Source: Asterochloris sp. CNOR1
Taxonomy: Eukaryota; Chlorophyta; Trebouxiophyceae; Trebouxiales; Trebouxiaceae
Reading direction: 5' to 3'
Length of the DNA: 64,000 bases
NCBI GenBank assembly: GCA_963969365.1
Contig: OZ017747.1
Coordinates: 1,116,001 to 1,180,000 of the forward strand
The notes under the pieces were generated by a model that was not told the origin of the DNA, did no database searches, and saw only the letters and a program-made list of their open reading frames with translations. The translations under genes were made by a program, and so were the position numbers. This document shows, piece by piece, positions 264 to 64,000 of the stretch; position 1 is the first letter of the stretch, and each line of letters begins with the position of its first letter.

Positions 264-3200
264 CGGCTGCTCAAGGCCTGGCAGGGCGGCAGGGGCAGGT
301 CTGAGATGTCCTCGCCGCCGATGGCCTGGGCTGTGGAAGAAGGGGTGGATGTGGTGTCCACTAGGTAGTGAATCTGCAGCGCACAGGGCCAGAGTTTGCC
401 ACAGCCCCACCTGCTGAGACACGTCTAGCAACATATGCTTCTTGTGCATGTCTTGGCAGATTGGATATTTCAGCTAAGCACAGCTTGGGCTGCAGGCAAT
501 CCCTGGCCTGTCACAAACTTGCCAGCGCACATGCTCCTTGTTCACTTGCCTCAGCTGTGCACAGCCTGCTCGGCCCGCTGCGCATCAGGGGCCCCTCACG
601 CCTCTCAGCTGAAGGCACCAGGAAGCTAAACAAGCAGGCTGTGCTGCCAGGCTGCACCGTCAGGGGCAGCAGGCTCCTGGTGATCTGCTGCGGCTGCAAG
701 CGGTAGCCCTGCTGGGGAGCCAGGTCGAGAGCCCGGACTTGAGCTGGCCAGTGCAAGTTGCTGGTGAGGGAGATGTGGATGCCCACCCGTCGATCGGGCA
801 GCTCCTGTGCTGAAACATGTATTCTGCGGGCACAGCAGGGTAAGGGTAGCTGAACCATAGCTGAGCATAGTGTTGCACATCACCACGCATGGCAGCCTAG
901 AGGCTTGGCAGGCCATGTAGGATGCACCCAATGCGACTACCCATCAGCAGGGCCCGCTCTTGCTGTGATGACAGCAACACCAAGCCTGCAAAGCTGCTTG
1001 CATCATGCTGGAGCAGCCACCGGCCATGCACAAGCCACACGTCCCAGTCTGAGGTGCAACCCTGACAAGATCTGCCACAGCCTGCCCACCTGAAGGGAGG
1101 GGACACCTGCACCACCAGGCGCGCTGCATGGGAACGGGGGCAGCCCTGCACATACTCCACCCCCACGTCTACATCGACAGAGCAGGCGCCCTGGGCTAAG
1201 TCGGCCAAGCCACCAGGGTCGTCCCCGCCTGCGCGCACTGGGCCCCTGGTGGCAGGGGCTGCTGCGCGCACCGCCTGGTGCGTCCGCGGGAATGCGCCTG
1301 CAGGATACAGAGTGGGGAGCTGGGCAGAGCTGACTCACTGGCAGGAATGAGGCTGGCTGCAGAGTGCACATGTTGCAGAAGCAGCAGGTGTGCTGCATGT
1401 TGCTGCAGGGAGGTGCAGCTGGCAGCAGCGGCCTGCTTGGATGCGAGTGATACTCTGGCAAGTATGTCGGTGGCTTCTGCACTTCCCCAGCCAGAGAACT
1501 CATGCCAAGTGGACCCCCACCTGGCTGCACGGGCAGCCACAGCACACAAGCCGCCTCCGCAGCCCACTCTGGCAGGTTAGGCTTGTGCGTCTGCAGCGCG
1601 GTCCAGGCCGCGCGGCCACTGGTGCTGGCCTCTGCAGTTCCGTCCCGCCCGGTTGCAGCCTCCTCCAATGCACCGCCGCCAGCTCCCACAGAGGGTGAAG
1701 CTGCGCCTGACACAGCAGGCTCCTGGCTGCGCGCAGCAGGGGCCGCCCGGCCAGGCAGCGCCCCGGAGTCTTGCAATGGCACAGCCAGCGCCCTGTCTGG
1801 CTGAAGCAGCTCCAAGCTGAGCCCCTGAGCTCGCGCAGAGGCGAAGACAACAGCGCCTCCTGCCTGCGCGGCCCGGGCCGCGGGTGTCACGTGCACGACT
1901 GTATCGTACAGCGCGTCGTGCTGGGGGCGCACCAGTAGCCCTAGCCACTGCTCCACCCCCGCAATCAGGGTGCCCTGCAGCCGAGCTCAGACGACTCGAT
2001 GGTCAGAGCCCAACACACAAGGCTGTCTGGCGGCGTCACCTTGGCGTTGTTGCCACCTGTACTTTAGCTGCCTCCTGCTACAGACGTCTTGCTTGAAGCT
2101 CGCAACATGCACTCCACAGGCAATCGAGACTTGGCACTCTGCACCAGGAACAGGAGGCCAGCAAGAGTCAGCATGCCCCACCTGAAGGGCCACTGCGCAC
2201 ACAGACAGGCGCGGGCGGCATGGGTGCACGTTGAGCATGACCATCTCCTCCAGCCGCTCCCCGTCCAGGGAAACCTCCAGCAAGGCAGCAGAGAGGCAGT
2301 CAGACAGCCTACAGCCAGCAAGATGCTGACGAGGGTGCTCATCGGTCCGCCATGCTCTGCTGGCTGCTCACCTTGCAGCTTGTAAGCACCAAACAGCAAA
2401 CACAGACAAGCGCCATCACAATGCCTTGCATCGAGAGGGAGGGGCACGACTGAAACCTGTTCTGCATGCCAGACATCCTGTTCCAGGTTGAGGCGCTTTT
2501 GCAGTTCCTGTCATGGCACTGCAGTGCTACGCCCCAGTCCTGCTGAGCACAGCCTTACCTGCCACAACATTGCCGCCTGCTTGGCACTGCCTCTGTCAGT
2601 GCAGGCAATGCATGCAGTGGCTGGCGTCAACATCGCAAACAGCATGGATCTCACCCACGCAAGGGTAGCAGCCCGGTTGCGCCGACCCTGCTTCTGTCAG
2701 TGCAGGAGGCGCACGCAGTGGCATGTACAGCACGGCCACAGCATCTCTCAAGGGTAGCCGGCTGCTCGCGTTGACCTCGGCTTCTGTCAGCGCAGGAGGT
2801 GCTTGCAATGGCAGGGCATGTACAGCATGGGCACATCACAGAGATCACCTGCCCTAGGGTGGCTGCTCGTTTGGCCCTAAGCTCTGCCTCTGTCAGTGCC
2901 GGAGGCGCATGCAGTGGCTGAGCAGGCGGCTGAGCACTGCTCAGCCAGGCTGCAGGGGATGCGGGCAGGTGTAGGCGCAGCTGCCGCAGCCGCATGTCCA
3001 GGTGCTTCAGAATGTACAAGCCATGGCGCTGTGGCAGAACCTGCAGGGCAGCACATGGCTTGTGGGCTGCTCAGCCAGCGGCAGGCAAAGCGTGCAGGCT
3101 ACCTTGCAGCAGCAACACGCTGCGCAGCCTGCCAGCTACTGCTATGAGTGAGCTGCTAGCATGGAGTTTGCACACATGGCCTTACAGGCAGATGCGCCTA

Positions 3201-6200
3201 ATTTGGGCCAGGGCAGCTACCTGGAAGGCTACCAGGTTCCACCCTGGCTGCAGCGTCACAGTCAAGTCCATGGCCGCCATGAGCAGCGCGGGGCTGTTGG
3301 CCTCCTGCACATTGCTCTGGCGCGGCTCTAGAACGCGCTGGCCAGGGCTGCTGCTGCTGCTGCCCTGCGGTTGACGCAGGCAGGGCATGCAGACCAGCTG
3401 CTCCGTCTCCTGCCACTGAGTACCAAATTTGGCATCCTCAGTGCTCAGAGAGCCTGAGTAACGCTGCTTCAGAGAGGTGGGCCCCAGCAAGCCATCAGAG
3501 CCCTGCACCAGGTTGCGCAAGTCATCACTTCCAAAGCAGACCAGCCTCCCTGAGAAGCAGTGCCTCAAACAGGAAGGCCCTGTGCCGCCGGCAGAGCTCT
3601 ACACCAGGACGCGCAGGTTGGAGAATGCAGACCATAAGCTGAAGGGATGACACACCCTTACCAAGGACATGAGCCCTGTCATGCCATCAGTGCCTTGCAG
3701 CAGCCATGACTCAGCTATGGCAATGAGCAGACTGCAGCAGCACTGAGCGCCCCCTGCCACATCCGCAGAATCAAGTGCTAGTCGTGCAGGCCACAAGCAA
3801 GACTTGTGCGCGCTGCAGCTTGAAGCCAGACAGCACGAACGAGATCCAGAGCAGCACTCAGGCAGCTTCTGTCAAAGCATCATCCGCCACCTGGGAGTCG
3901 TCAAGGGCGCCACCAAACCCTCGGCTCATGCGTTGAGTGCGCAGGTGCATGCTGCCGCCCGCCGAGGTCAGCCCAGCGGGGGCTGCCGCCGCCTTGGGGG
4001 AGTAGGCCACAGCCACGTCCTGCAGCAACGCCAGCACCAGACGCACACTGCCCAATGCCACGGGCTGGGGCAGGGCGCTGTGAACCTCCACCACGACCTC
4101 CACTGCATCCCCCACACAGACTTGGAGCGCCCCTGGAGGTGAGCCTTTCCAGTTGACCGCTGAGGGGTGTACAGAACCGGACACCGCTGGCCCGCCTAGT
4201 TCTGCTGCTCCTGCAGCCAGCCCTGCTTGAGAGCCAGCAGCGCTGGTGCTGTTGCTCTTGCCAGGGCAGATGGGGTGGCTGGGCAGCAGGGTGGGCAGCC
4301 CGTCCTCGCCCACCAGCCCAGCGAATTTGCTGTAGTGTCCAGCCGGGGGCCGCAGCTGCAGCATGCCCAGTGCGAGGGCAAACTCAGCAGGCGCAGATGT
4401 GTCCTGCAACACAGCCGAAAGGTGCACAGGGCCCCCTACGGCAGCTGCCCGCAGCAGCTCTGCCTGGACAGTCTCCTTGGTGCGCTGGGGCAGCGAGCCT
4501 GCTGGCAGGGACAGCAGCTGGATGCAGGTGTAGGCGAGAGCAACCTGCACAAACACAGCGCAGCTTCAGCATTTGTGTCCAGCTAGGCGCATTGTTCTGC
4601 AGACAAGACTCAACATGCTGCAAAGCTGCCTCTGCCCCAGAAGCAGGGCTGCATGTCATGAACACCATGCAGCCCTGCAGCACAGCTCTGAGAGTATAGT
4701 GCAGAATAGCGTCTTGCTGTGGTGCGGTGCTGTCAGTCTGGCTGCCACGTCAAGCTTGCAACCTGTCAGCACATGTCTGGCAAAGTACAATTTCAATAGC
4801 TTCTGCTCATACTGCAGAAGACCTGGGCAGCCATAGACACCAGAACATGAGTGTGTCACAGCACGCCGCACTCCACAATGAAACCCCACAGCTTTTGACC
4901 GCTTCTGCTCGCCCTCAGGTGCATGGGCAGAAAACCACGTGTACAGCGATTCTCTACGACAAAAGACCTAGCTTGGACAGCCACTGCTCGCACTCAAATG
5001 CTTGGGCAGCAGTACGGCCCAATGCGATGTGTGCAGCAGCGTGCAGCATGTTCCAGGTGTAGAGCCCACCTCAGACAGCATCTGCTCGCACTTCAGAAGC
5101 CTGGGCAGCACCAAGGCTGCCAGCGCCTTCCAGCCCTCCTTCAGGATGAGCCTGCACTGCCGCTCAATGACGACTGCAGCACGCGCATGCAGCCCACGGG
5201 CGATCAGTGCATCTGCCAGATCTGCCCTCATCAGCAGGCTGTTGCGCACCCTGCCGCATTGGCTGTAGCAGGTGGCCGAGGCGCCGCAGAGTTCCATCCA
5301 CAGCTCCTGCAGGGAAGTAGGCTGCAGTCGAGCCCGCAACACAAGGTGTTCAAACCGGCTGCAGCAGTCAGCAATGTCCGCGCAGAGCTCCATCCAGATA
5401 AACTTGCAGGCAGGCAGGCTGCAATCGCGCCAGCGCCACTTGAGGTCCCACACTGGCTTTAGCAGGGGACTGAGGGACTGCGGAGCGCCATCCAAAGCTC
5501 CAACAGGGAGGAATGCCACAGTTGAGCCAGCATCACATAAGTCAACACACTGGCTGTGGCGTTCAGCTATCCACTGCTGAAGCCCTTGCAGCGCTTCAGC
5601 AGGAAGGCTGGCCCTAGCCTGACACACACCATCTGCACCAAACCTGCCTTTAACCAATTCAGGAAATGCAACACTCTTTCATGTCCCTGTCCTGTAGATC
5701 TGCGCAGAAGCCGCCAGATAAGAGCTGGTCTGCACCACCAAGACACACAAACCAACAGTGCATCAGGACCATTTGCAAGGCATCTCTCACAAAGTATTGC
5801 GCAGGCAAGGTGCCCCACCTGAAACAGCGGCTGGGAGCTCAGCGACAGCTTCAGCCTCCAGTCTGACAGCCACTTGGGGGCCTCTCGCAGGGAGGCAGCT
5901 CCCGACGAGGCCTGGCTCCCGGCTGAGGGAGTTTCCGGCGCCTCTGCAGCCCCACACAGCCCTGTCAGCTCCCCTCCACCAGGAGGCAGCAGTCTCATGT
6001 GCCTTGTCAGTCAAGCTGCATGGCTGACACAGACATGGCTGCCCAGGTGCTGAGGAGGCAACAGGCAACCCCGCCGCTGCCATGCTAATAGCATCAGGCT
6101 GGCACCTGATGGCTTATTTGGGTTGGACAGGGGCCTGCCCACAGCCATGACAGCAGCACGGGCACTGCGAGGGGTGGCAGGCTCATCAGGGTCTGTCAGC

Positions 6201-9200
6201 TCCCTGCCTGCTGCGCTCAGGACCCTGATGGGCCTCAGCGACCCCAGACTGGGCAGCCCTGCACAGGGAATGCCAGCTCGTGAGTACCGAAGCTTGCTCA
6301 AGGATAGCTCTGCACGTACATCCACAGAGTCCCTGCAATGTAAAAGTGGCAACAACCTTACGCTGATGCTGCTGCCCACTCCCTGGTGCTCTCCATGTGC
6401 AGGGGTTTTTAGACCCCAAATGAGCATGCCTGATCTGCTGCACACATTGCAGCACTCCTGCTTCAAGCTGCAGGTGTGATGCGATTCTGCGAGGAGATGC
6501 ACTTCCGCACAGCTAGTCTACTGCAGAAGCTACAGCAGGGCCCAGAGCAGAAAGTCAGCAGGCTCCACAGAGGCCAGCTGGATTGCCTGACCTGATGGCC
6601 CATTGTCTGCTGCAGGCATCACAGGCACCGCATCTGCACTTGAGTGCCAAGAAGCCATGCCTCTCTCCATCGGGCCCATGTGGCTCCCATTGGCCTCAGG
6701 TGGCTCCTCTGTGCCCCTCTGCTGGTGTAGCTCAGACGCCTCCTCCTGTTGCTGGGCTATGGACTCTGCCAGCCCCATGTTGGAGTAGTCAGCAGAGGTG
6801 CGGCTGGCTAGCCTGCCAGTGCCCGTGCTGCTGCTGAAACTGTCGCCTGCAGGGCAAGCATGAAGGGCTTCATTCCAGGTTGACGTCAAGGGTACTGCCT
6901 GCTGACGTCTGTCCTGCTGGCAAAGCTGTGGCCCAAAGTCAGGCATGCAAAACGGCTCAACAAGCAGGCAATTGGTGATGGAAATGTTCAGCCTGCGATG
7001 CCTATGTTGCTGCCAGATGATGTCTCCCACAGACAGAGCTGGCTGAGGTACCACAGAGGCCATCTGCATGAGCCCCTCTGCACTGAGATGCACCGACCCA
7101 GCATGCACAGCAATGGGGCCAGCGCGTTTGACCCCCCCCACCTGCAGCCGAGGTTGCACTGTCATCACCAGTAGTGGCCCGCGCTACAGGCTGGCTGGAG
7201 GCAGAGTCCGTGCGCGCTGTGAAAGCTGGCGTGGTGGGCGCCGCCTCAGTGCGCATCTGCTCGGTGGCAAAGCGGCTCAGCTTCTTGGGGGTGGTGGTGT
7301 GGGTGAGGCGTGCAGTGGGTGTGCTGGCAGAGCTGCTGCCCTGACCTGCTGATGCTTGCTGGGAGGCATCCTGCAGCAGCAGAGGCAAGCCATTTTCCAT
7401 ATACGAGCAGAACTGCTTCAGACATGACAGAAACAGTGACAGAAGGGCAGCAGGTGCAGCTCAGTGCGTGCTGGTCTGGCTGATGGCCCTGCCTGCAGTT
7501 GGGTGGATTTGTCGTAACAAAGTGGCTGAACACAGACCCTGGCAGGCCACCCACCTGCTGCTCCTGCCTGCCCAGGGACTGCAGGAATTGCTGCTGCTCT
7601 GGGGAGGGAGGGGTGTCCTGGGATGTTGGGGTGAGCTGGGCGGGCGTCAGCAGCGCCTGCCCTGCCGCAGTGCCCCTGCTGCGCACACTCATTGGGGAGG
7701 CACCCTGCACACAGGACTGGAGCTGGTCAAGCTCTGCTGCTGGTCAATCCTCTGCAGGCAGCGGATCTCAAGCCTGCCAGCCACATATTGGCCTGTATCC
7801 ACAATTCGGATTCCATGGCTCGCAGGCAGAACTTGCCGACACCCCTGCCGAGCCATATCCCAACCATCAGGCTGCTCTCCAGAATATTTTGGCAGTGATT
7901 TTGAAGCTTATAGACGCCAGGCCAGGTTGCATCAAGGTACTTACGTGCTGCCGCATGTGTGAGGTGGTCAGGTGGGCCTCCATCTGCAGGGTGGCTGCCA
8001 TCTGCATCAGCTCCAGGCGAGCAGCCGCATACAGGTGCCCCAGCACACAGTGATAGGCACGCAGGGACGCTGACGGCCCCTCTCCCCCCCGCGCCGGCCG
8101 CCTGCCAGGGCTCAGATTCTGCAGCGGGCACACACTTGTGGTGAGAATCTTTGCACCACTGTGGGAATATCTGGGCATGCAGAGCAAAGGCACGCTGGCA
8201 AAGCTCTGCCCATTGAAGACAGATGCCCTCTGCAGACAGATGCACAACTATGCAGCATGCCTTCTGCAATCTGCCTCCAAACAGGGAACAGGCTGGACTG
8301 CCAAAGCCAGGTCTACAGGTCAGAGGCTCTGTTGACATGGCTTGCCAGGCTGCAGGGCCACGATGGCCGCTGTGTCTCCACATGATGAGCTATTGTGGCC
8401 AGGCAGTCCACCGGGTAGGCCACTTGATACCCTGGCAAACTGCTTTCACTCAGCAGCACAGCCAGAGCACAGCCCCACATGCCTGGTCTGTCTCCACGAG
8501 ATCATCATCGTGGCCTGACACCCCAAGGTCCCAGTCCACTTCCATGTGCAGCTCTGTGGGCGGGGGCACAGCTGTGCTACCCAGCGTAGCTGCTGTGCTG
8601 GCAGCGCTGCCAGGCGGCGTGCTGATGTGGGCAATCATGCCTGCACCCATTGTACGCATCTGATGCATGGCTGCAACAGCGCACTTGCAGGCTCATGCTG
8701 AGGGAAATGCAACTCGACTGCACAGCTTGACTGCACAGCGATGAAGTTTGCAAAAGTCTGGTGCTGCACAAAGTGATGCGCACAGTAAGGACAAGCAGCT
8801 TCCTAGCGTGCAGATCGACAAGATGTCACGGTGTGGATGTGCCCGACGCTGCCCTTGGCCACCTTGCTGCTCCAACCCGGTGAAGTTGTTTTTATTGATC
8901 TTCAGGCGCTTGAGAGACAGCTGCCCAGCCAGGTCAGCTCCCACGTCTGCAGTGCGACGTTTGCTGGGGGTCTGGACGTCATTGCCGCCCTCTGAGCCAC
9001 CTTGCTCCGAATCAGTGCCCTGCACACACGCCGAATTCACGTGAGCAAGATCAGTGCAACTGAAGGGCCCATGATGCAGTACCTAAAGGGTCCGCAATGA
9101 CCGGCACACTCACTGTACATGGTATCATAGGTCTGGGCAAATGGGTGGCGGCAGCACAATCTGCACTCTGAAATGGCAGCTCTGCTTGCCTGTGCTGCCA

Positions 9201-12200
9201 GAGTGGAGGCACTGTGCGACCTAGTCATGCCCCTGGAGGTGTCAGCAAGCCTCTGTGACTCTCGGGCCAGCGACTGCGTGCGCCTGCAGCCAACTTACAG
9301 GTCGTCAGGCCTCCCTGATGGTAGGCCTGACTGCGGGGGAGGGCATCAACCATCAACAGTGCTGAAAATGCCATTCCAGCTGTGATTGACCAGCAATGGG
9401 TTGACTGGGCAAGCATTGCAGGACTCAGGCTGATCATATAAATCCAAGCTGCTTGCAGATGCCCTGCCCAGGATAGCCATGTGCACCATGAAGTAAGTGG
9501 CTGCAGCTCCAACAATGATGCCCACCTGTGTCCACTGGTAGGCTGTGACCTGGACTCCCCGGTTGCTGGCGGCGCCTTGGTGTCAGAGACTCCCATCAGC
9601 CGCGCAGTGGTGCTGGCCAGGGAGGTGCAGGCTGAGAAGGTCCAGGCCTCCCTGAACAGAGGCGGCAGGGCGCCCAGGGACACCTGGTGGCTGAGCAGCT
9701 CCGCAAAAGTCTGTACAAATTTCAGGCCGCGCTCCGCCACCTGCAACCAGGCCCAGGCAGGCAGGTCAGCACTGGGCAGCACGAGGTGTATCTACGCTGC
9801 AGGCTGGCCTGTACTGTCAGGTATTGGTGCTGCTGGCCGGCTCAGGCATGATTGCAATATTGGATCCGCCTGGGCTCCGCAGATACCCCTGAAGGCTGCC
9901 CAGGTGCAGCAGCATAGGCACGCCAGGCAGCACTGCCACGCCAGAAGGCTGGCTTGCTGAGGCATCTTTGACAGGGCCCTGGACACTTCTGCAAATGCCT
10001 GCGCACCTCTGCAGGTCTGCCCAGCTTCAGTAGCACCCTAGCCTGGCAGGCAAAGAGGTACTGCCTGAAACTGAACTCGGCCACGCCTGCACCCCGCATG
10101 ACTGAGCGCCGCGTCTCCCGCCATGAGGCCTTCAGGATCTGGGCAGCATCGTCGCCGTCATTGCTGCCACCTGCACGGCAGAGTGAATTGGGCATCAGGC
10201 CTCAAGACAGATTGAGGAGGCGGCCAGCATTGATGGCAGTGATGCTGCCACCTGAAGGGCACCATTTGGCCTGGCGCTGGCTGATGGATGTATGAGTGGG
10301 CATGCACATTGATACTGCCACCTGCACAGCAGACAGGGTGCTGACCAGTTTTACTGATGCCAGCAATCTGCCGAAATGAGCCTGAGGCCAATGAGGGGCA
10401 CGCTTGAGTGCTCTTCTGGACTCAGCAAGGCCCTGACATCTGGTTACTTGGGTGCCATAGTCCCCATCACACTGTAGCCAACTCCCCTCACCCCACAATC
10501 AGCAGCCTGCGCCACCTCCTACAAAGGTGAGACAAGTCAGACTTGCGGCCTCCCAGGGGGTTCCCCCTACCGGCGGCCGAAGGCAGTCGGATTCTAGCTC
10601 AGGGTTTTTCACATCCTGGCCATCGGGGGTTGTATGATGACTGCTCAGCAGCCGTGAGCCTCTGAAATGCATACCAGGGCCGCACCCTCCCTCCATATAC
10701 AGTTGGCAGTTTGGGCCTCATACGTCCAAGTGATGCCATCCCAGAGCAGGCAAGCCCACCAAATTCCTGCCCGCCCAGTGCTCCTCCCTCCACCAGTGCC
10801 TCCAGGTAGCAGGCCTCCAGCTCAAAGTACTCCCGCAGGGCGTCCTCGAGCAGCCCCGCAGCCTCCATCATGATGGCCAGGCTGTCCTTGACGCCGTACA
10901 GGTCCCGGAAGGACCACCCTGGGCGCAGACGAGAGTCCATCAGCTTCCGCACCTGGCAGGCAGCAGCGTGGGGCCACTGAGACAGCTGAGCAGCTGCAGG
11001 GCAGGTTCCACCTGATGCAGCTGACAGATGTGGGCCATCGAGCAGCTGAGGCACAAGAGTGAGCGCCTGGTGCGGTAGGCAGCAGTCTGTTCATGATCCA
11101 GCTGAGATGCAGGGGCCCCAGCCAGAGGTCCCACGGCATTTGTCACCATGTATCGAGCCCCACACAGACAGGGTGCAGGGTGCTATGTACCATCGCAGGC
11201 CCGGCCCCTGCTCAAATGCTGGAAGCATGCTGCAACCTTCAAGTTGGCTGCTCAGAAGCGTGCAGGGACGTCTGTTCCAGCATGCACACCTCCTCTTCAT
11301 AGGCTCCCTGCCTGGCCTCATAGCTGGCTTTCACAGCATCCTTCAAGAAACGCTCCAAGTCCTCGAGTCCAGCAATGGAGCCGCGGCCGCCTGGAGGCAG
11401 GTCCAGCCGCACACAGCGCTCCCGCCGCCGTGTGTTGAAGTCGTGGCGTAGCGCCTCAAAGACCTGCACACAGCAGCCGCTGCTGCAAGATGAACGGTGG
11501 TGCCCACCTGCACAGCAGCGCTGTCCAGCATGCTCTGCCTTAACAGCAGCATGTGCGCCTCAGCAGGCAGCAAGGCTGCAGCTGCTGTGCACTGCTGGAC
11601 ATGGCAGCTGCCTTGGCCTGTCAAAGATAGCATGCTTGTCAGGCATGCACTGCTGGGAGGCGGCGCTGACTGACAGCACCTCACCTTGCGGGGTCCTTTG
11701 AGGAGCCCATCTGAGGGCGTTGCCTGCTTGACGTGGCACACCACCCACTCTGCTGGCCCCAGGGGGTCCTTCTCGCGCTCCAGCAGGGCCCTGAGCTGGC
11801 CCCGCAGTGTGCGCTTGTACTCATCAGGGTCATCGCAGGAGACCTGCAACATGACAGGCAGCATTGGCAACCAGCAGGAGTAACCGCACAGCCGGAAAAA
11901 GGTTATTCCACATGACACTGTCACAGGAGACCTGCACAGCATTGGCATGAAGAGGCAGCCTCACTGTCAAGAGGAAGCAGGCAACCTTCAGCACACTGAC
12001 GTTGACCATAAGCAGGCTGCATGCACTCACAGCCACTCCGCTCAGATGCTGCACTGTGCAGCCTGCTGTCAGCAGCAGTCTTGCAGTCGGCAGCATCGCT
12101 GCACCGCTGGCACTAGTGAGCCCGCAGCGCACCAAGGCCTGCAGGTGCCTCGAAGCCCAGGCCAGTCCTGCATCGAGCTCACCAAAAGCAGGTGAACATA

Positions 12201-12600
12201 TGGGTTGCGAAACCAATTCACTGGGCTGTGGGCATATGGCTTGATGCCCTCTAGTCTTGTGTCTGTGGATGGAAGGTACCTGCAGGGGCACAGCCCTGAA
12301 CTGAGCAACGCCAGCAGCTTAGCTGGGCCTGAGCACAGGAGCACGCTTACTGAATGGAGAGCTCTGGGATGGCAACAGCATTGCCAAACTTGTTGCGAAG
12401 GGTGATGTTGCGCAGGGGAAGCCTTGCTGTCAGAGCCTGCAGGGCACATGCAAGTGTGTATGTGGGTCTAAGCTCTGAGCAGGTGCAGTCAAGCTGCCAT
12501 GTTTGTGGATGAGGATGCCTACATCTGCCAACAAGGACCAAGTGCCAGAAATATCCTCCACTGCAACAACGAAACGTGCTCCAAAGTCTTCAAACTCCAT
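264..12600 (-). CDS. TRAPPC10: TRAPPC10/TRS130-like TRAPPII tethering complex subunit (3' end probably outside window)
   Basis: TRAPPC10/Trs130 is a TRAPPII subunit that works at the Golgi in Rab-GEF activation and vesicle tethering. The start is the ATG at 12600 (MEFEDFG..., then FVVAVEDISGTW, the family N-terminus). Phase-consistent exons: 12523-12600, 12351-12436, 12183-12279, 11685-11843, 11290-11463, 10724-10952 and 10007-10170. Further exons: from 9740, about 8863-9019, 7945-8118, 7142-7370, 6592-6846, about 6130-6340, about 5819-5960, 5070-5306, 3891-4544, 3221-3502, 2849-3040, 2182-2274, 1521-1974, 1090-1297 and 600-823. Landmarks in family order: EDALREYFELEACYLE, FSFRQYLFACQARVLLKL, LILKEGWKALAALVLP, EQWLGLLVRP and the C-terminal-region VSPPFR. 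Homologues continue past the last firm exon; pieces at about 403-483 and 264-373 could be further exons, but their phase is uncertain. Exons between 9740 and 5306 are less secure. Several introns carry degenerate copies of exon edges. Confidence 0.9.
2590..2918 (-). repeat. Four-copy, ~90-106 bp tandem copies of a TRAPPC10 exon end
   Basis: Copies begin near 2590, 2690, 2780 and 2886 on the plus strand and share a core like CTTCTGTCAGTGCAGGAGGC. The 2886 copy lies inside the coding exon 2849-3040 (peptide APPALTEAEL). The other three lie in the intron that follows it on the minus strand. Two of them also repeat the exon tail and donor surroundings: the exon's AAT LGQ|GTGATC region is echoed by a TACCCTTGCGTGG|GTGAGA stretch. 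Confidence 0.75.
3480..3715 (-). repeat. Three-copy, ~95 bp tandem copies of a TRAPPC10 exon start
   Basis: The real acceptor (exon 3221-3502) reads, on the plus strand, GCCATCAGAGCCCTGCACCA. Related copies sit near 3588 and 3679 (GCCATCAGTGCCTTGCAGCA), upstream of the exon in the transcript. The exon's first residues GSDGLLG have the degenerate counterpart GTDGMTG in the copy at about 3680. Spacing is 91-97 bp. Confidence 0.7.
4800..5115 (-). repeat. Four-copy, ~80-100 bp tandem copies of a TRAPPC10 exon end
   Basis: Plus-strand copies near 4803, 4902, 4983 and 5083 share TCTGCTCGCACT...GGGCAGC. The 5083 copy is the true 3' end of exon 5070-5306 (peptide LPRLLKCEQMLSE). The other three lie downstream in the intron. 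All four have diverged and only the exonic copy keeps frame. Confidence 0.72.
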
Positions 12601-12892
12601 GCGTGACACTACATGCCTGATCTGCAGCAATCAGACCCTCTCACTGCTGCTTGGCAGAAGTGTCTAGCTTGCACAAGTTGCTCATGAACACTTTGCAGAG
12701 CATGGATAATCACCTACCCCTGAAGAGTCCTGTCAGTGATTACAGTGGGCCAACAGACTTTACAAGGGCAGATCCAATATCGGGAGCTGTTCTGCCATGC
12801 CGGGCGTGCGACTTGTGGCTCAGTGGCACTTCACTTCTAGCATGGCAGACTGAGAACAGGCAGTGCACAATTAAATCAGGCCCCATTGCCTG

Positions 12893-50200: not shown

Positions 50201-53200
50201 TCCCCATGTCAGCGTTGCCGCTGCTGGTGCCAGGGAAAGCACAGGGGCTGCTGGCAGCCTCTCAAACAGTGGATGTGGCCTCACCAGCAGCAGCATTGCT
50301 CCCGATGCTGCTGCTGCTGCTGCCACTGCTGCTGCTGAGCGTAGTCAGGCCCTCATGGCATCCTGTCCTGGGGTGGCCTGTTCAGAAGCCGCTGCTGATG
50401 TCAACGACGACAGCAGCTTGGCAGAGGGGGAGCAGCGGGCAGCCCCAGCCATGTCGGCTACTGGTGCACCCTGCACCCGGTATCCAGAAGGTGCTGCCAG
50501 CATGCCTTCTGCAAAGGGCGACCAGCGGGCAGGCCCACCTGTCCCGGAGGCTGATGCTGCTTACACACAGCGCCAAGCAGGCACAGGGTTGGAGGGGGTC
50601 AGGGAGGCTGACCATGCAGGCCAGCGTGGCCAGGCTGCTGCTGCCGAGGCGCAGCACCAGGCAGGTGGCGGCGTGGAGCACCTCAGGGAAGCTGAGAAGC
50701 GGCTGAATAAGGTCTCCTGGTGGCTGGAGCTGACCAAAGGGAGGGTTGCCGCGGGCAAGGGCTCCAAGGCTGATCAGCAGGTGCGCCCCCAGCAGCTCTG
50801 CTGCTTCCCATCCTGACCCGCTTCATAGCTCCAGTTGCTAGTGTGTTGCCTCACTGACTTGGCAGAATGGGTAGACGTCAGCAAATGTAGCTGAGTGGGG
50901 TGGATGATGCCTTCATGTCTCGTACAGGCTGGCGGCTGTGCTGCTCCGGCAAGTCAAGATGGTCAAGGCAATGGCAGCTCTACTGAGGTGTTCCTCCAGC
51001 ATGAGGCTGCATCTTGCCGGACTGCTGCTGCTGGCCTGCAGCTGGCGCCGGCTGCAAAGCGGCAGCTCTTTCAGGGAGGTAGTGCAAACCCAGGGGCACA
51101 TCAGGCTGAGGGCGGCCCAACAGCCACGGCTCGAGCAGAGCCATCCTGCACTGGCACGGGCGCCATCTCAGGTGAGCTCAATGCTGCACCCCTGCTGGCC
51201 TGCAGCTGAGCACCACAACATCACACATTACTATTTGCAATGTTCAATTAGTGTGCCTTGATGCGCAAACCGCCCAGATCTGAAACATATACCAGCCTGT
51301 AGAAACATGATTTTCACTGGATGTCTACAGGGCAGGCAGGCAGCAAGCCAGCCCCGGCTGGCGATGACTGGACGCTGCAGCCTCGGAGGCCACAGCCACA
51401 GCTGCGCCAGGCCTTCCTGGAGGGCGTGGAGCGCTACTGTGACGACGATCCAGGCTCCAAGGCAGCTGCCGGCGTGCAGCAGGCGCAGGGGCAGGCAGCT
51501 GCTGGGATGCTGCAGACCCTGGGACAGGTAGCTGGCTGCAGGTCTCATACACTGGAGCAGGTAGCTGGCTGCAGGTCTCATACACAGAAGCAGGCAGCTG
51601 CTGCTGGGGATGTGCCGCACACAATCAGCCTGGCAGCTGGTGGCGCAGGGCAGGCAGCCGGGCTGGGTGATGGCGAGGCGCTGCAGTTTCAAGGGCAGGC
51701 AGTTGATGACATGCTGCAGATACATTGGCCAGGCAGCTGTGTCTGCGATGCAGGGCCAGGGAGGTCCTGCTGGGGCTGGGGCTGTGGGATCAGCAGACCA
51801 GCGGCAGGTGCAGGAGCCTGCGAGCAAGCCGCTGCTGGGCTCTGCGCAGCAGCAGAGGCCTGGACCAGTGGCTGGCGCTCAGGTCCTGGCACAGCAGGCG
51901 CAGCAGGGTCAGCAGCAGGCCAGCCCTGCTGCTGTGCATGCTGGCTGGCGCAGCCCGCAGCAGGACGCAGGCGGCCTCCATCTGCCAGCTGCCATGCTGA
52001 GCCCTGCCAGTTTGAAAGGTGGCACCCACCACAACAGTCGCTATGGGAGCCCGCTGCCATCCAGAGAGGGAGGTGCCTGTGCCCAGGGTGGGAGATCCGC
52101 AGGGCCCAGCCAGCCCCAGCCCCCTCAGCATGCTCTGCAGAGTCACGCTTGGCTCACAGCACACCTGAATGCTGCCTTCCCTCCAGAGATGGGGTCCATA
52201 GCAGGACCTCAAGGCAGCACACCACCGTTAACTCAGCCTGCAGATGCCCTGGCCCCGGCTGGGATGCAGCCGAGGCTGCAGGGCCCTGGAGGGCCAGAGC
52301 AGCAGGGCCGAAGGACGCTGCAGGGCGCTGTTGGCGCACCTGCAACTGCAGCGGCCCAGGGGCAGCACGCAGAGGTGTCACCCGACAGCCACGCCCTGTC
52401 GCATGGCAGCCACTCCACTGGTCGAGGGTGGCCATCGGGACGCAGGCAGACACGGCGGCAACCAGCAGCAGAGCGAGCCGTCGAGGAGGCTGCACAAGGC
52501 AAGCCCCTGTGATGGCAGGGGGAGTGCAGCGGTCACAGGCTGCAACAGCATGCAGGGGCAGCACCATGCAGGGCAGCAGCATGCTGGCGGGCCGGGCTAG
52601 GCTGCATGGCGCTCAGCAGACATGGCATGCACCCTGTGCCATGCCATGTAGTTCAAGCGCTGGTGTCTGTGCATGTTCTTGTTATGATGTGGCAGCAGCG
52701 TGCACTTCATCCTTGCAGGTGGAATCCCGAAGGTGCAGGCTGCTGAGGCGCCTCTGCTCAGGCAGGGCAGCTATGCAGCCGCCGCTGCCCAGGTTCGGGA
52801 ACGGGCAGCAAAGCAGCAGCAGGATAGGGACAGGTTGGCTGCTGCCAGCGAGGCTGCCAAACAGGCAGCAGCCAAGAAAGCGGTTCAGCAGCAGGTGAGC
52901 TGCCTGCACCCAGGCTTCACTGCGACATGCAGACTTTCCCGCCAGACACTTGACGTTGAATTCTCAGTCATACTGTGGCGCACACAAGCCTCTGTCCGGC
53001 TTCCTCCATGAGACTCTTGCGCTGATGCAGCCCACTGGCAGATGGTCTTTGCCATCTGCCACCCGCCATGCCTGGTGCAGTGACATGTAGCGGCGTCTGG
53101 CAGGGTCTCAAGTCCGCCCTGCCAGCTGCAGGCTGACAGTATGACGGAGCACCAGGCGGCCAAAGCTGCCGCGCAGGTGGGATCCTATGTGCAGGCAGCG

Positions 53201-55295
53201 CAGGGGCACAGCGCTGACGCGCCAGGCCAGCGTGCAATCAGCGGGCGGGCACCACCACTGCTGCCGCCGCAGCAGCAGGGGTGGCACCCGAGCTCCTCAG
53301 GGCTCCATGTTGCAACACCTGGCGGAGGCTATGTTGGCAGACTGCTGGATGAGGTGAGCAGAGCTGCGCAACCAGTGTCAAATGACACCAGTTCCATCCT
53401 AAGGCAGCACTGGCCTTCATCAGGCAAGTGGTCCCTGCACGCTGCAGCTTGCCCAGCTTTCCAGTGAGCCTTCAGTACAGAGATCAGAAGGATGAAGCCG
53501 AGTGCAAGACTTGCAGAACCCCTGCTGCAGGCCAGCTATCCAGCAGCCACGCCCAGCTTTGCAGAGGGGCAATCCCACCAGCATTCCTCACGAGCAGCAG
53601 AAACGCAAGTCATTGGGGTAAATATGCATTCCCAATGCGCGACCAGTTAGTATGTGTCCTGCGCTGCAGAGGGGCAACCCCACCAGCATCTCTCATGAGG
53701 AGGAGAAGCTGATGGCTTCGCTGCAGCGTCTGGCTGCCGACTCCAGGGCGTCGGCTCAGACCTGCAGCTCAGCAGCTGTGCCGCCCCGCAGCCCACGCCC
53801 GGAGCCTGCTGGCAGGCGCCCGGCAGGGGCGCCTCAGGAGGCAGCTGCCCTGCGCCGGCCCAGCCCTGACCCTGCTGCAGGCAGCCTCAGGGCTGCTCAG
53901 GCGCCACGGCGACGGACTGTGCAGGATGAGCGCCCAGCAAAGGCGCGGCAGGACCTGCTGCGGGGAGGGCAGGCAGGACGGCAGGTGGCTGGCGGCACTG
54001 GGGCTGCGGAGAGGCAGGCGGTGGAGCTGTGCAACAGCTGGCAGCAGGAGCAGCTGCAGGCCTCCCTGGCTCGCCTGGACGCCAAGCTGCAACAGCTCTC
54101 CGTCAAGCTGCATGGTGGGACACATGGGGCATGCTTGGAGCTCGTGCAGCCTGCACACACTGGCTTGTCGCTGTGCTGCGTCAGGGTGATGCAGGCCTTC
54201 GGCGTTTGGCGGCGCCTGTACACCACCTGAGGATCTTTCAAGTACTGCCTGCTCAAAGCTGCTTGCCACCAACATCTGACTAAGACTAATGCTGACTCAA
54301 ACTCACTTCTGACAGCAACAGGCCAGGCCCAACCTGGTGTCTTTGCTGGTCCTGCAGGCACTCACACAGCCCCTGAGCCAGCTGCGCCACCAGCAGCGCT
54401 TCCACTGCTGCCTCTGTCTGCTCCTGTGACGCGTCCCGCCTCACAGCTGCCCTCCCGCGCCCCGACATCGCGCAACATCCGCACTGCTCAGCCCGAAGGG
54501 CGTGCCTCTGGGCAGGTGACTGCGCTGCCCAGCCTCCACCAAAGCAGGCAGCTGCTACCATCGCAGCAGGCCTGGGGCCTTCCTGGGCCAGCTGCATCCT
54601 TGGGGAGCGCCCCGCCTGAAGCAGGCGGCAAGCCTAGCCGACGGCCGCCGCTGCTGCCTCCAAAGCGGGGCAGCAGACCACCGGACCAGCCTGACCAGAA
54701 GCCTGGCCGGCCAGGGAAGAGGCCAGGCAAGGCAACGCGGCCAGCCCCAGCCCCAGCCGCTGCAGCTTCAGCCGCAGCAGGGGACTCTCCGGCCAGAGGT
54801 GCTTGGCAGGGGTGGCCTGCAGCAGTGCAGACGCCGCCTGCTGCTCCTGGAGCTGGCCTGTTGTACCCTCAGCAGCAGCAGCAGCATGTACAGCAGAGCC
54901 AGCAGCAGATGGTGCAGCCTTCAGCGCAGGGCACCTGGCATCCTGCAATGGCTAGCTTCCAGGCGCCACCCATGGGGGCCTACATGCAGGCGCCGGGCTG
55001 GCAACAGCAGCCCATGCTCTACCCTGGCACGTGGCAGCCCATGGCTCAGCCTGCAGCATACAATGTGTTGCCAGGCATGGCAATGCAGCACCCACACATG
55101 CTGCCAGTGCATAGTGGGCACCATGGCATGCTGCCTCAGCAGGCCAGCCCCATGAGAGCCAGGAACAGCGGTAGCATAGGCACCTCATCCAGCCGTGCGC
55201 TCATCCCAACCATTGCCAACAACAGAGCTGACAGTCATAACAGCGGAGTGATCAGGCCTTACAATGTAGAGATGCTGCTGTCAGTAGCCAACTGA
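47271..55295 (+). CDS. Orphan Gln/Pro/Ala-rich coiled-coil protein
   Basis: A 14-exon model of about 1,785 aa. Exons: 47271-47452, 47529-47577, 47705-47995, 48208-48330, 48571-48754, 48921-49946, about 50245-50780, 50928-51171, 51331-51527, 51754-52498, 52719-52894, 53132-53353, 53670-54114 and 54358-55295. All join in phase; only the 50245 acceptor is weak. The N-terminus is basic and helical (ALKRRRLERAEADMRMRN, GLKAYIAGQRRQ). Further coiled-coil candidates are EKRLNKVSWWLELTKGR, QVRERAAKQQQDRDRL and LQASLARLDAKLQQLSVKL. Between them lie long disordered Gln/Ala/Pro stretches, one with a GQEDW repeat near 49130-49370. The C-terminus is Met/Pro/Gln-rich, ending VIRPYNVEMLLSVAN. I recognise no family; a scaffold or cytoskeletal role is only a guess. 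Two introns (after 48330 and 52498) need GC donors. The start could instead be the Met at 47391. Confidence 0.72.
51525..51610 (+). repeat. Tandem ~33 bp repeat of a 5' splice site after exon 51331-51527
   Basis: The donor CAG|GTAGCTGGCTGCAGGT at 51528 is repeated almost perfectly once, about 33 bp downstream, and then more weakly as CAGGCAGCTGCTGC. The spacer TCTCATACACTGGAG / TCTCATACACAGAAG is also shared. Confidence 0.75.
53551..53715 (+). repeat. Exon-start duplication, ~105 bp apart
   Basis: The coding exon begins CTGCAG|AGGGGCAACCCC and encodes RGNPTSISHEEEK. A copy 105 bp upstream begins TTGCAGAGGGGCAATCCC and reads RGNPTSIPHEQQK before losing coding character. About 40 of 47 bases match by eye. 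Only the downstream copy leads into the long open exon. Confidence 0.85.
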
Positions 55296-55367: not shown

Positions 55368-58300
55368 TTATGGTCTGAACAGAAAATTCCTATCTGATAG
55401 AACTGGGCGCTTGCATCGTTGCTGCAGCCCCTCAAGCCAGGGATAAGCTGTTGATATAGTCTGGATGTCCTGCCTGAACTGGAACATGGACAATACATCT
55501 TTCCCCTGATAGCATCTGGCACCTGGGATGACTTGGGGTTCAAACGTCTGCAAGGCTGCCCACTGCTGCAACACCTCCAAGGCGTAACGTTTGACATGCT
55601 GCATGGTCACATGCTCCTCCATGAACTGCAGCAGCATCGCAAAGGGCTGCCTACTGCTGCAAGACTCTATGCCACAGTGAAGCAAGCTTGAGAACAAATG
55701 CTGCCTCACATGCGAACAATTGCAGCCCTGGCTCAGGAGGCCAGACTCAAGGTGCACTAGCTAGGCGCGCAGCCAGGGAGGCACAAGAGGGGTGAGCTGA
55801 CCTTGGCAGCATTGTCTGCTATCTCCCAGGGCTTGTAGTCTGTCCATTCCAGCTCTGGCTCTGGCTCTCCAGCCTTATGAGCAGCAATCACAGCCTCCAT
55901 GTCCTGAATGCGCTCCACTATGTGCGCACACAGATCACGCCGCTCACTGCAGCAACACAACCACCTGATTGTGCAACGATGAGTGGGCTGCTGCCCATCA
56001 CTTCTCTGTGTGGCTGCTCTTACGCTCAGCACTCACAGCCGGAACCAAGCTGACAAGCTGCTGGCAACTCTGTTGAGCACGCACAGCCCGTCTCAGGCTG
56101 GCATCCTTGCAGAAAGCGATTTTCAGCTGCACTCAGCAGGCATGCTGCCCTTCATTGTGCCGCACCACCTCAAGGCCGCAATCCTGTAGTGCAGACAGCA
56201 GCACAGCCCACGGCTGTTTGCTGCATTTGCTGTGCTCCATGTCAGCAGCTTGATGAGCGAGCTGCGCCAAGGAAGCCTTACCTCTGCCCCAGGTCCACGT
56301 AGTGCTTGTTGGGGACGAGCCCGCGTGTGAACCATTCTGGGAACTGAGGCTTGGGTGAGAGGACAAGGCTGCCGGTGGCCAGGCGGTACTTGAGTGCGTG
56401 AGACCAGGCCCCAGACTCCAGGTAGGCCAGATACCTGCAGGACGGCGCAGATAGTCAGACAATCTACCTTCATCTGAGGAACTGTTGGTTGAGAGTGCTG
56501 CTGAAGCGTGGCGGTCAGACCTCTCAGCAGCACAGCCATGTATGCCAGTATGACGCAGTGCAGATGTGTCCTGCAAAAGTGCAGCAGGGCAAATTTGGGG
56601 ATGCTGTGCACCACTTGATGCCACCTCGCTACCCTGCTGCAGCCAGACAGCTCAACAACAGTTCCATGCACTGGAATCAGGCCATCCCAGTGTGCAGTTC
56701 CTGCATGTACAGCAACGGCCAGATGACAGGCATATGGATGAACTGGGCGTACCTGAAGTGGCACTGGTCCACAATGCTGATCCAGAAAGGGTCCTCCAGG
56801 TTGAACAAGTCTGCCTCCGCTTGGCGCCCATCCGTCTCCAACATCTCGGGGCAGGTCACAAAGCGTTCCCTGCAGCAGAAACCTGTTGCTTGCTGCCGCT
56901 GCTGTGCAGTGCAGACATGTTTGGTGACTGGAGTCTCCAGGCCAACCCTGATGGCCCCTGGGGTGCAGGCAGCAGACTGCCTGTACATGCAGCACTGTTG
57001 CAGCACAGCCAGTCCTGCAGTGTAGCCAGAAGGCTGTCTGCATATGAAGCAGGCACTGCCTGTCCAGCATCAATGCCCATCCCGCTGGCCTGTACAGGCA
57101 GCAGAGCAGTAGATGGCCAGGATGTGCCAGTCAGCTGCGACAGGGGCAGGCCCCAGGTGCAGCGCCCTGCTCCGCCGTGCATACCTGCAGCTCATCTGTA
57201 TGACGATGTCGAGGCACACAGCCGCACAGCGCCTGATACCTGACATGGTCTTTTGAAACCAACTACTGCCAGCATGTTGGTGAGGCAGGCCTCAGCCCTT
57301 AAAGTCAACCCTGCCCTACAGTGCCCACCTGACTTTTGCAAGCCCCACACTGAGGCAGCCAACACACACAGCGTCTTGCGCTTCAGTCTGTGCTGGCCTC
57401 CCCAGCGCAACATCCCTGAAGCACGGCATCATGGCAGTGCACCTGAGCTCGTCCCTGGAGGTGTGGTTGCGGCCCCGCCAGGTCAGCTGCGACTGTCTGT
57501 CTGTGAAGGAGACGCCCGCAGCATACTCACGGATGGCAGCAAACTCCTCCTCCCAGCCGACGATTGGGGTGTCAGGGTCTGCAGCAGAATTGGACCCAGT
57601 GCGGCTCTCGCATGCAGGTGCAGTGCAGCCAACATCCCCTGAGCCGCCCAGAGTGTGCCCTACCCTTGAAATTGGGAAGCCTGTCCAAATTTTCTGTGGA
57701 CCAGTAGCTGAAGTCAGGGAAGGGTATGTCCGCAGACGTCGCTGACGTGTCTGCTGAGAGAATGGGCAGCGGCACACCTGTAGGGCGCAGCTGAGTATGG
57801 CCGCCTCCTCACAAGGGCCATTCCGGCATTGCTCTCAGCAGTCATGAGGCAGCAAGGCACTCAATGAAATCAATGCGCGCACTGGACGGCATACTGCAGG
57901 GCGTCAGCTTACCAGATGCCTGTGGCTTGAGGGGCATGCAGGGGGGGTCGCTGGAGTGCATGACCGCATCAATGTCTGGCACCTGCACACATCTGGCACC
58001 AGGTTGAGCTTTTGGCCAAGAGCGGTCAGCCCCAGCTTGCCTGTCAGAGGACAAGGGCCCTGCCTCACCTCACCAGGGAATGTGCGGATGATATCCAAAA
58101 GGATGAGCAGGTTGAGGGGGAGGCGCGCCCATCGCCGCATGTCCCCTGCACACCAGGAGGCGATGCTGTGCTGCTTTGGGGACCTGCAGTTGGCTGAAGG
58201 GGCCATGCATGGCAGACAGGGAGGCAGTGCTGAGCTGCTCCGGTGAACACGGAAAGGTGATGCTGTGCTGGTTTTGTGGCTGCATTGGGCTGAAAGGGCT

Positions 58301-59277
58301 GTGCGCCAGACGCACAGAGAGGCAATGCTGCACTGTTCTGGGGATAGCAGTCTTGCTGAAGTTGCTGTGCATGCAAGCGGCCCATGCTGCTTTCACGACT
58401 GCAGTCTGGGTCAAGCGGCTCATAGGAAGGCAATGTGGCGATGGATTGCTGCGCATGAACACATGCGCAGACAGCCGTCCTGGGGATGGCAGCAATGCCA
58501 GGCTGCACCTGCAAGGCCTGTACGGGAGGGCATACCGCAGGCAATGCAGTTCAGATCTGAGTGACTGCACTCTGGCTGAATGAGCCCAGCAGTCAAGATG
58601 CTGCAGCTGCTTGCCTGGTGTGGCTGGCCACCAGCCCTTGCGTGGCTTGGCATTGCTGTGCTTGATGTACAGAGTGTCGTTGATTATCTGCACCGCAGAA
58701 GGGATCAGCTCAGGAAGCTGCAGGGTCCAATGCCTTTCCAGGAAGCCTCTTTTGACAGCCAGCCAGCCAGCCCCAGCTTGCAAAGGCATGCACAAGGGCG
58801 GACGCTGTGCCTCGATCCAGGTCTGCACGTTACTCTGACTGGTGGGCATGTGCTCTGAGGGGTGAGACCAGAACTTGCCTGGAAGCGGAACTGGTCGCCC
58901 TCACACTTGTGATCAGCAGATGTGGCCACCTGGAGAGCAGATATGCCGCTGCGCTTCCAGTGCTTGAAATCACTCTTGATGTGTGGGCCCCAGAAGGGAT
59001 CAAGGTCCAGAGCCTGGGACCTATCGTGGCGCTGGAGAGTCTGCTCCAGACCCTCTGCAAGCCACTGCTGCTCCTCAAGGTTGCCGCCGCTGATGCTCAG
59101 CAGAAACTTTGCATGGAACCCCCGGGACGAGGTCTTCCTGTGGGTGGCCAGCAGGGCATAGCCCAGAATGGCTGCAGCTGCTATCAGGATGCCGCTGAAA
59201 CATGCCAAAAGCTTGGCTGGTCGCATGAGGGCTGAAACCCTGCAGGTGCACGCTCCAGACTCCGCTGCATCGGCCAT
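55368..59277 (-). CDS. GT90/CAP10-family glycosyltransferase, type II membrane protein
   Basis: Ten exons in phase: 58879-59277, 58615-58687, 58069-58145, 57913-57982, 57664-57777, 57443-57578, 56753-56869, 56282-56434, 55802-55946 and 55368-55625, giving about 513 aa. A short cytoplasmic N-terminus precedes a membrane anchor (about 23-44, LLACFSGILIAAAAILGYAL). The lumenal part follows CAP10/POGLUT order: FRFQIINDTLYIKH, EVPDIDAVMHSSDPP, FPDFSYWSTENL, LTWRGRNHTSRDELR, FRYLAYLESGAWSHALKYRL, then LSPKPQFPEWFTRGLVPNKHYV. It is probably a Golgi or ER glycosyltransferase acting on protein or wall glycans; family members transfer glucose or xylose, but the substrate cannot be told. The first two introns need GC donors (GCAAGT and GCAAGC). 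Alternative GT donors would drop the FRFQ motif or break frame. It is head to head with the acyl-esterase gene. Confidence 0.9.
58155..58460 (-). repeat. Copies of a 3' splice site in GT90 intron 2
   Basis: The true acceptor (exon 58069-58145) is preceded by GCAGCACAGCATCGCCTCC. Degenerate copies of this block (GCAGCTCAGCACTGCCTCC, GTGCAGCATTGCCTCTC) lie at intervals of about 36-65 bp across roughly 58220-58345, with weaker ones to 58460. Confidence 0.65.
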
Positions 59278-59415
59278 AATACCCGAAAAGGTAGTGACCT
59301 TGACTTTGACCAAATCATGAGCCTGGCATGAAAAGGCAAGGTGTGGGCAGGCAGGGCCTGTCAAGAAGGACATGGTTTGCAGTTCTTGGAGGCACCCTGA
59401 TGACAGGTATCTCAG
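59278..59415. promoter_or_regulatory. 138 bp divergent promoter between GT90 and acyl-esterase genes
   Basis: The two start codons face away from each other across only 138 bp, so the promoter is probably bidirectional and the pair may be co-expressed. No TATA box or other known element was recognised. Confidence 0.45.
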
Positions 59416-63337: not shown

Positions 63338-64000
63338 TCAGACGGGTGCAGAGTAGTTGGGATTCGAGCCCAGCATCCTGGTCCTGTGGCTGCTGGAGTC
63401 CCCTGGTGATGGGGCCGGCGGGCCTCTCTGCTGCTGCTGAGCATAGTTGAACATGGGGTGTGACTGGACTGTTCCATATCTGACTGCCTGAATAAGGCTC
63501 ACAGTGCTCCACAGCATCCACACGGCCACCTGCACATTTGCTTTCATCAAGCATGCACATGTTTTGGTGCATCTGGCCATGTGCTTGGGCATCCAAGCTG
63601 CTGCCCATGGTTGATGTGCAGCCTGTCAGCAAAAAGCGGGTGGCCGGCGTGATGGTAAAAGCCACGAACAAGCAGTGCACAGCTGAGGGCACCCATGGTC
63701 TCTGTTGCACACATTGACGTTGGGCTGCTTCTGCCTCTGAGCAGCTTGATCAGGGTCAGACAGTGCTCTTGGGCTGCTTCAGCCTCTAGAGCAGCATGGC
63801 TACGGCTCACACAGTGTTTTTGGGCTGCCTCCAGCCCTGAGCAGCATAGCAGGGGCTCACCGCAGTAGTCAGGATGGATGCAGACAGCCAGCCCCACACT
63901 GCGATGCCAACTGCCCCAACCACGGCCAGCACCATGACAACCTTGGCTGCCAGGGCTACGCTCATGTGGCAGAGCAGCAGCAGGTCTGCCAGGATGCGGC
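63338..64000 (-). CDS. C-terminal part of an unidentified membrane protein (5' part outside window)
   Basis: Two exons: 63861 to beyond 64000, and 63338-63529. They join in phase to give RILADLLLLCHMSVALAAKV and two likely transmembrane stretches: VVMVLAVVGAVGIAVWGWLSAS and then AVAVWMLWSTVSLIQAV. A soluble tail follows (QQQQRGPPAPSPG...) ending SNPNYSAPV. The pattern is the end of a membrane protein, probably multi-pass, with a cytosolic or lumenal Pro/Ser-rich tail. No family was recognised. Confidence 0.7.
63722..63860 (-). repeat. Three-copy, ~50 bp repeat of a 5' splice site in the right-edge gene
   Basis: The true donor (minus-strand GTGAGC, plus 63855-63860) is repeated at 63805-63810 and, mutated, at 63754-63759. 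All three blocks share GCTGCTC...GCAGCCCAA. Spacing is 50-51 bp. Confidence 0.8.

Follow-up and report, generated by a model that had tools for sequence, protein, structure and literature searches.

The DNA analysed here, called the window throughout, is a stretch of 64,000 nucleotides from the green alga Asterochloris sp. CNOR1 (positions 1116001-1180000 of contig C2, in a genome of 56.38 Mb and 21 contigs), which is ~60% G+C and rich in CAG/CTG. Its genes are compact and intron-rich, with CTGCAG acceptors and GTGAG donors according to a gene-finding hidden Markov model (HMM), and our subject is the short, decayed copies of exon edges that lie inside their introns. The HMM was self-trained on the window together with 200 kb from contig C1 (C1:500001-700000), with training ending at 383 introns. 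Decoding of the window then yielded 12 gene models, three of which are tiny, with 94 introns; the C1 segment yielded 42 gene models with 288 introns. A further 80 kb, from contig C10 (C10:600001-680000), served as a held-out set, for which the HMM parameters were frozen. Pfam searches matched SNF2 pieces only among 20 long open reading frames of the window (2/20), and ENTH, TRAPPC10 and TSP1 in 5 of 10 predicted exons; tRNA and Rfam scans returned no matches.

Local repeats and exon-edge copies

Using a self-match scan for ungapped pairs scoring at least 18, at offsets of 12-400 bp (window) or 20-400 bp (window plus C1), we detected 50 pairs in the window, whereas nine Markov simulations (order 1, 3 or 5) produced 0-2 apiece. 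Likewise, 162 pairs were present in the 264 kb of window plus C1, compared with 1 in a Markov-3 sequence, and 65 in the held-out DNA, compared with 0 in its Markov control. The copies are close-set and more alike than the background composition would give, as in local tandem or near-tandem duplication, and the degenerate repeats on which the original prediction was built are real rather than CAG/CTG low complexity: Markov controls of order 1-5 produce almost no such pairs. In the window, pairs covered 9.1% of exons, 3.3% of introns and 0.0% of intergenic DNA; the corresponding values for C1 were 3.9%, 4.6% and 3.4%.

For the exon-edge test, the query at each junction consisted of up to 50 exon bases and 25 intron bases. 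It was aligned to the remainder of the intron concerned (at most 500 bases), and a junction was called significant when it beat at least 199 of 200 length-matched segments of other genes' introns; the test covered introns of at least 140 bp and junctions with exons of at least 30 bp. In window plus C1, 28/320 donors and 37/320 acceptors were significant (~3.2 expected for each), and in the held-out DNA 13/114 donors and 14/114 acceptors, compared with 1 and 2 of 114 in a reverse-complement control. The window alone accounted for 7 donors and 12 acceptors, spread over 8 of its 12 gene models. The prediction that exon-edge copies recur from gene to gene is thus borne out, in the window and on contigs C1 and C10, as is the claim that the extra copies sit on the intron side of the junction, making introns longer. 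About one exon-intron boundary in ten keeps a decayed self-copy within its own intron. In an earlier version of the test, which used no intron bases in the query, the rates were 6.9% and 8.7% (n = 320 each) at p<=1/61, compared with 0.6% antisense; for exon-interior windows 100 nt off the junction they were 3.8% (of 106) and 3.5% (of 113), compared with 1.6% expected. Chance likeness, which a region so rich in CAG/CTG might suggest, is contradicted by the Markov, reverse-complement and other-intron controls alike, and we give it a negligible probability.

To control for array placement, gene models were circularly shifted (300 shifts). The 98 arrays scoring at least 18 in window plus C1 comprised 28 intron-only, 17 exon-only and 46 mixed exon/intron arrays, with 7 intergenic ones, relative to shifted-model expectations of 29.7, 18.6, 36.5±4.5 and 13.3, respectively. 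Hence the mixed arrays, which overlap junctions, were in surplus (P = 0.02), although this figure still includes a detectability bias. The surplus persisted at thresholds of 16 (64 vs 50.4, P = 0.003) and 20 (35 vs 27.4, P = 0.03), and was carried by those mixed arrays that are mostly intronic (26 vs 17.2±3.4, P = 0.02; at threshold 16, 35 vs 22.9, a value reached in 0/300 shifts). Conservation of the exon copy, with decay confined to its partner, would by itself lead one to expect such a surplus; in the families at 4789-5117 and 29342-29530, exon-copy identity was indeed at least as high as copy-copy identity. Within genes, the duplications are therefore placed roughly as by chance, with a modest surplus at junctions.

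The period was divisible by 3 in 15/17 exon-only arrays, compared with 10/28 intron-only, 17/46 mixed and 2/7 intergenic arrays, so that the exon-only arrays, lying in open frame, behave as tandem coding repeats. We conclude that this is one kind of process, which the reading frame filters in exons only. A separate mechanism peculiar to junctions, as originally proposed, is not supported, since duplications of this kind are also seen in intron interiors, between genes and inside exons, and the junction surplus is modest.

Offsets drop off above ~125 bp, and not all copies are strictly tandem. Among mixed pairs at offsets of 85-115 bp, 11/28 matched over 80% or more of the unit, and 16/28 left a spacer of at least 25 bp unaligned; the full-unit match was found in 4/12 intron or intergenic pairs at the same offsets. 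In the 16 spaced mixed pairs, with a matched run of ~49 bp and a spacer of ~53 bp, the spacer resembled the sequence after copy 2 in 2/16 cases and that before copy 1 in 0/16 (p<=0.05), and in 8 spaced intron or intergenic pairs the counts were 2/8 and 2/8. In simulations, 49-100% of strict tandem units could be recognised, according to how much decay was assumed. Near 100 bp, then, roughly every second pair consists of spaced local copies, the outcome to be expected of template-switch or capture repair. The term "serial tandem" accordingly fits arrays such as those at 5240-5640 and 29342-29530, but not these spaced pairs. In 30 junction cases, the matched exon part measured 34-52 nt (quartiles; banded X-drop extension). 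A constant matched exon length of ~50 nt was considered as a junction-anchored unit and rejected: six intron-only and intergenic pairs at offsets of 80-115 bp match over equally long stretches, so the exon extent is perhaps a detection limit.

Individual arrays and their splice sites

The arrays of the window, including two that had been taken for tight junction cases, are collected in Table 1.

Table 1. Repeat arrays and copies in the window (positions of the window; + and - denote strands)
Positions	Strand	Type	Description
4789-5117	-	Donor-side family	Exon end ~5070-5117 plus three degenerate intron copies; significant in exon-edge test
5240-5640	-	Acceptor-side array	Three intron copies upstream of the exon start (up to 5306); intron 5307-5818; exon-edge acceptor test
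29342-29530	-	Donor-side array, ENTH gene	68-bp units; exon edge ~29478-29530; intron copies 29410-29462 and 29342-29394
28789-29042	-	Acceptor-side copy, ENTH gene	Copy 222 bp upstream of second half-exon start (exon from 28810); epsin homology
53553-53707	+	Acceptor-side pair	Offset 105 bp; exon start 53670; copy with intact TTGCAG
10131-10261	-	Acceptor-side pair, TRAPPC10-like gene	Offset 81 bp; exon start 10170; exon-edge test
58142-58390	-	Acceptor-side array	Offsets ~97 and 64 bp; exon start 58193; exon-edge test
40233-40340	-	Donor-side pair	Offset 55 bp at exon end 40316; exon-edge test
2580-2930	-	Four-copy family	Unit ~90-106 bp; conserved core of ~35 bp ending CTGACAG
3453-3618	-	Pair	Offset 96 bp across exon start 3598; outside the exon-edge-significant junctions
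17306-17397	+	SNF2 acceptor-region copy	Intron 3' end to AG, offset 57 bp; no or almost no exon in match
17696-17842	+	SNF2 acceptor-region copies	Three 54-bp copies up to probable acceptor before DLLGDVRSF
63708-63866		Array near window end	~50-bp units (Tandem Repeats Finder, TRF); gene model and strand uncertain
51460-51604	+	In-frame coding repeat, no junction case	33 bp (11 codons); exon 51331-51701 open throughout
16551-16613	+	Intronic tandem repeat, no junction case	30 bp; SNF2 intron, upstream of probable acceptor 16659-16660

The best-supported example is the ENTH intron, in which donor-side and acceptor-side copies occur together and are backed by homology. The ENTH profile (PF01417) is split over two exons, which match profile positions 25-76 and then 77-123; as these alignments are contiguous, the ~665 bp between them must be an intron, although the HMM model includes part of it in an exon. 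The first half-exon has a probable donor GT at 29477-29476. The acceptor-side copy retains its AG, and reading from this inner AG (29032) runs into an in-frame stop. Similarly, the inner site of the pair at 53553-53707 (53565) would give an in-frame stop, so that neither inner acceptor is simply an alternative coding site; the spacer of the latter pair is dissimilar, which makes it a spaced rather than a tandem pair. The family at 4789-5117 shows successive copy offsets of ~98, 79 and 104 bp, has lost the GT from its inner copies, and has identities of 0.74-0.80 between exon and copies and of 0.67-0.74 among copies. The array at 5240-5640 has a period of ~97 bp and is tandem across most of the unit, with a 122-bp gapped match at offset 194; a PDB search of 5070-5306 yielded no match.

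We compared the inner copies whose alignment crosses the junction with the expectation under neutral decay, which at ~80% identity is 0.64 kept. The GT was kept in 7/15 cases in window plus C1 and 7/9 in the held-out DNA (14/24; P = 0.67), and the AG in 16/22 and 9/11 (25/33; P = 0.20). A general loss of the inner splice dinucleotide is not seen in these counts; nor is there any sign, in these small numbers, that selection removes or keeps inner sites. The outer site is presumably the one in use, which homology supports for the ENTH intron only, and the inner copies are probably neutral. That they instead function as alternative exons, alternative splice sites or selected decoys might be argued from how often the inner GT or AG is intact and from the similar core that the family at 2580-2930 shares over four copies. 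However, GT and AG retention fits the neutral expectation, both inner acceptors checked (2/2) run into an in-frame stop, mixed-array periods show no bias to multiples of 3, and exon-copy identity is not below copy-copy identity in the two families compared above; taken together, these points render a function of the copies distinctly improbable.

Other arrays are less clear-cut. At 2580-2930, the HMM exon 2659-2746 has a weak acceptor, and the acceptor used could sit in any of the four copies. The ~35-bp core of this family is better preserved across the four copies than the remainder of the unit. In the TRAPPC10-like model, Pfam family PF23036 matches neighbouring exons, one of the two matches falling below the curated cut-off. 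The minus-strand models 6530-14155 and 1-5998 adjoin, and the first in transcript order matches a TRAPPC10 N-terminal family; the model 1-5998 (-) may be a continuation of 6530-14155 (-), both forming one gene. The HMM intron of 2137 bp near 63708-63866 is doubtful.

The copies in the SNF2 gene at 17306 and 17696 had been read as exon-edge copies, but they consist mostly of intron 3' end and contain hardly any exon. The exon from 17398 is homologous to RAD26/ERCC6. At 17696-17842, the HMM calls this in-frame intron exon, and the PDB alignment has a gap between read-through residues 45 and 150. The same gene has a probable GC-AG intron at 17127-17397 (+), with GATGAG before the donor GCAAGC and TTGCAG before GGCCACAA, between DE and GHKIK of a helicase motif. 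Two tighter cases, of 33 and 30 bp, had also been counted among the junction copies; the former lies within an exon, where the HMM reads 11 codons per unit in frame, and the latter is wholly intronic and lies upstream of a probable acceptor, identified by eye; the frame there (16299-16850) had no match in PDB. Further tandem repeats in predicted exons occur at 49067-49389, 45228-45373, 44128-44283 and 13416-13649, with units of ~66, 84, 27 and 87 bp, respectively, all divisible by 3 and in low-complexity proteins. The model at 32643-41597 (-) predicts a large protein that contains thrombospondin type 1 repeats; inspection by eye also suggests a probable transmembrane segment.

Origin of the copies

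We consider it likely that a general, genome-wide process of short local duplication, tolerated by introns and filtered by selection, explains this pattern best. Short local duplications would arise throughout the genome, mostly at offsets of 20-125 bp and with a matched stretch of ~40-60 bp, either tandem or spaced. Selection in exons would let almost only frame-keeping duplications persist, and in introns and intergenic DNA duplications of any length would do so. Those overlapping an exon edge could persist if the outer splice site stayed in use, in which case the added DNA would become intron and the intron would grow. As the exon copy would be held by selection and the intron copies would decay, exon-edge pairs would stand out. 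The mutational step was most likely local repair or replication synthesis of a patch or template-switch type. In keeping with this, each of three units searched across 56.4 Mb occurred at one place only (best candidates scored), so that the units tested have a single nearby parent copy, as in repair-mediated duplication; the prediction that the copies differ from introner elements holds for these three units.

Several observations weigh against this explanation. Intergenic arrays are too few (7, compared with 13.3 by random placement; P = 0.02), with the intergenic bases of the window uncovered altogether, and the process is therefore not evenly spread. The family at 2580-2930 lacks the exon-constrained pattern, its identities being 0.75-0.88 among all copies. 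Basic offsets have a median of 101 bp in mixed arrays but of 57 bp in intron-only ones, a difference that exceeds the shift control (0/300 at threshold 18; P = 0.027 at 16). In addition, duplications involving non-coding DNA show a preference for offsets of ~94-106 bp, whose replication is weak to moderate. With this range fixed before the held-out DNA was examined and compared with two flanking ranges, mixed loci numbered 14 vs 5 and 3 in window plus C1; the held-out DNA had 6 vs 3 and 1 (P = 0.08), or 10 vs 3 and 3 once intron-only and intergenic loci were added (P = 0.016). A bin of 93-105 bp, chosen after the held-out list was known, held 20 loci overall, compared with 7 and 6 in its flanks (P = 0.0012); in the held-out DNA it held 7, compared with 1 and 2 (P = 0.02). 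The intergenic deficit, the longer mixed offsets and the preferred offset all go unpredicted by a simple neutral model. Finally, the gene models are ab initio, and some in-frame introns are misread as exon, as happened with the SNF2 intron (gap in the RAD26 alignment) and part of the ENTH intron.

Some of these observations would be accounted for by a process directed at junctions, for example through transcription- or splicing-associated breaks, that duplicates the segments around them in ~100-bp units. Such a process would fit the surplus of mixed, and especially of mostly intronic, arrays over shifted placement, the higher rates at exon edges than in exon interiors, the longer mixed offsets with their preference near 94-106 bp, and a matched exon part mostly within 34-52 nt. 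The surplus is modest, however, and the exon copy, by decaying slowly, offers a simpler source for it. In the held-out DNA, pairs that are intron-only or intergenic show the same lean near 100 bp (4 loci vs 1 and 2, P = 0.17), and matches of ~50 nt also occur among the six intron-only and intergenic pairs mentioned above. We therefore regard a junction-directed process as unlikely. Similarly doubtful is the broader proposal that this lineage has a recurrent duplication with a preferred offset of ~100 bp, favoured or preferentially kept near junctions, which would copy the last or first 40-60 exon bases with the splice site ~50 bp into the intron and would be a main source of intron length.

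The copies might also be what is left of introns that arose when exonic segments were duplicated in tandem (the Rogers model), given that the repeats tie exon to intron as this model needs. Yet the surroundings of donor and acceptor reached a similarity score of at least 11 at an offset equal to intron length in 0/328 introns, compared with 0.8% of 4015 control offsets, and the copies include intron bases beside the splice sites; we judge this origin highly improbable. The general process of local duplication thus remains our preferred explanation. The core observation of the original prediction is upheld, and its separate, junction-specific "serial tandem" mechanism is supported only in part: the phenomenon is real and fairly frequent, and its junction specificity is unproven.

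Relation to known systems and significance

A precedent is the potato RdRp gene, in which a tandem duplication crosses an intron-exon boundary (PMC4974935). As in Asterochloris, a genomic duplication spans the 3' end of an intron and the 5' start of an exon and carries the splice signals along; there, however, a single recent event made a new intron, whereas here many old events lengthened existing ones. In rice, short tandem duplications are the commonest insertion class, accounting at the start for 70% of events and declining beyond 125 bp (PMC7971508). The resemblance lies in offsets mostly below ~125 bp and in structural changes being purged more from exons than from introns. The rice events are recent and were compared between varieties, whereas those described here come from one genome, have decayed, and near 100 bp include a spacer in about half of the pairs.

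Repair-mediated duplications of vertebrates (PMC2671141) likewise involve local copies with one nearby parent and can include exons and splice sites; they lie in interrupted transposons, with cases of insert-template distance within 50 bp removed, whereas the copies described here were detected without transposon markers and lie mostly below 125 bp. Intron gain by tandem duplication under the Rogers model shares with our case a within-gene duplication involving splice sites, but its signature, an offset equal to intron length, is absent here. Introner elements (PMC9860276) also add intron sequence recurrently, but they share one unit, in contrast to the three units tested here. Among literature titles and abstract openings, in which subscription papers were thinly covered, we found no report of recurrent exon-edge copies in introns causing intron lengthening.

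The source of intron length in compact, intron-rich algal genomes is an open question. For Chlamydomonas relatives with long introns, Craig et al. state that the advantage of length is unknown and that the driver is probably ancient (PMC8226300). A practical caution is that ab initio gene models can call exons where there is in fact an inner copy or an in-frame intron. If about one junction in ten keeps a detectable self-copy, local duplication would be a source of intron growth that can be measured and dated, in which the exon copy would provide a built-in reference for the age of each duplication.

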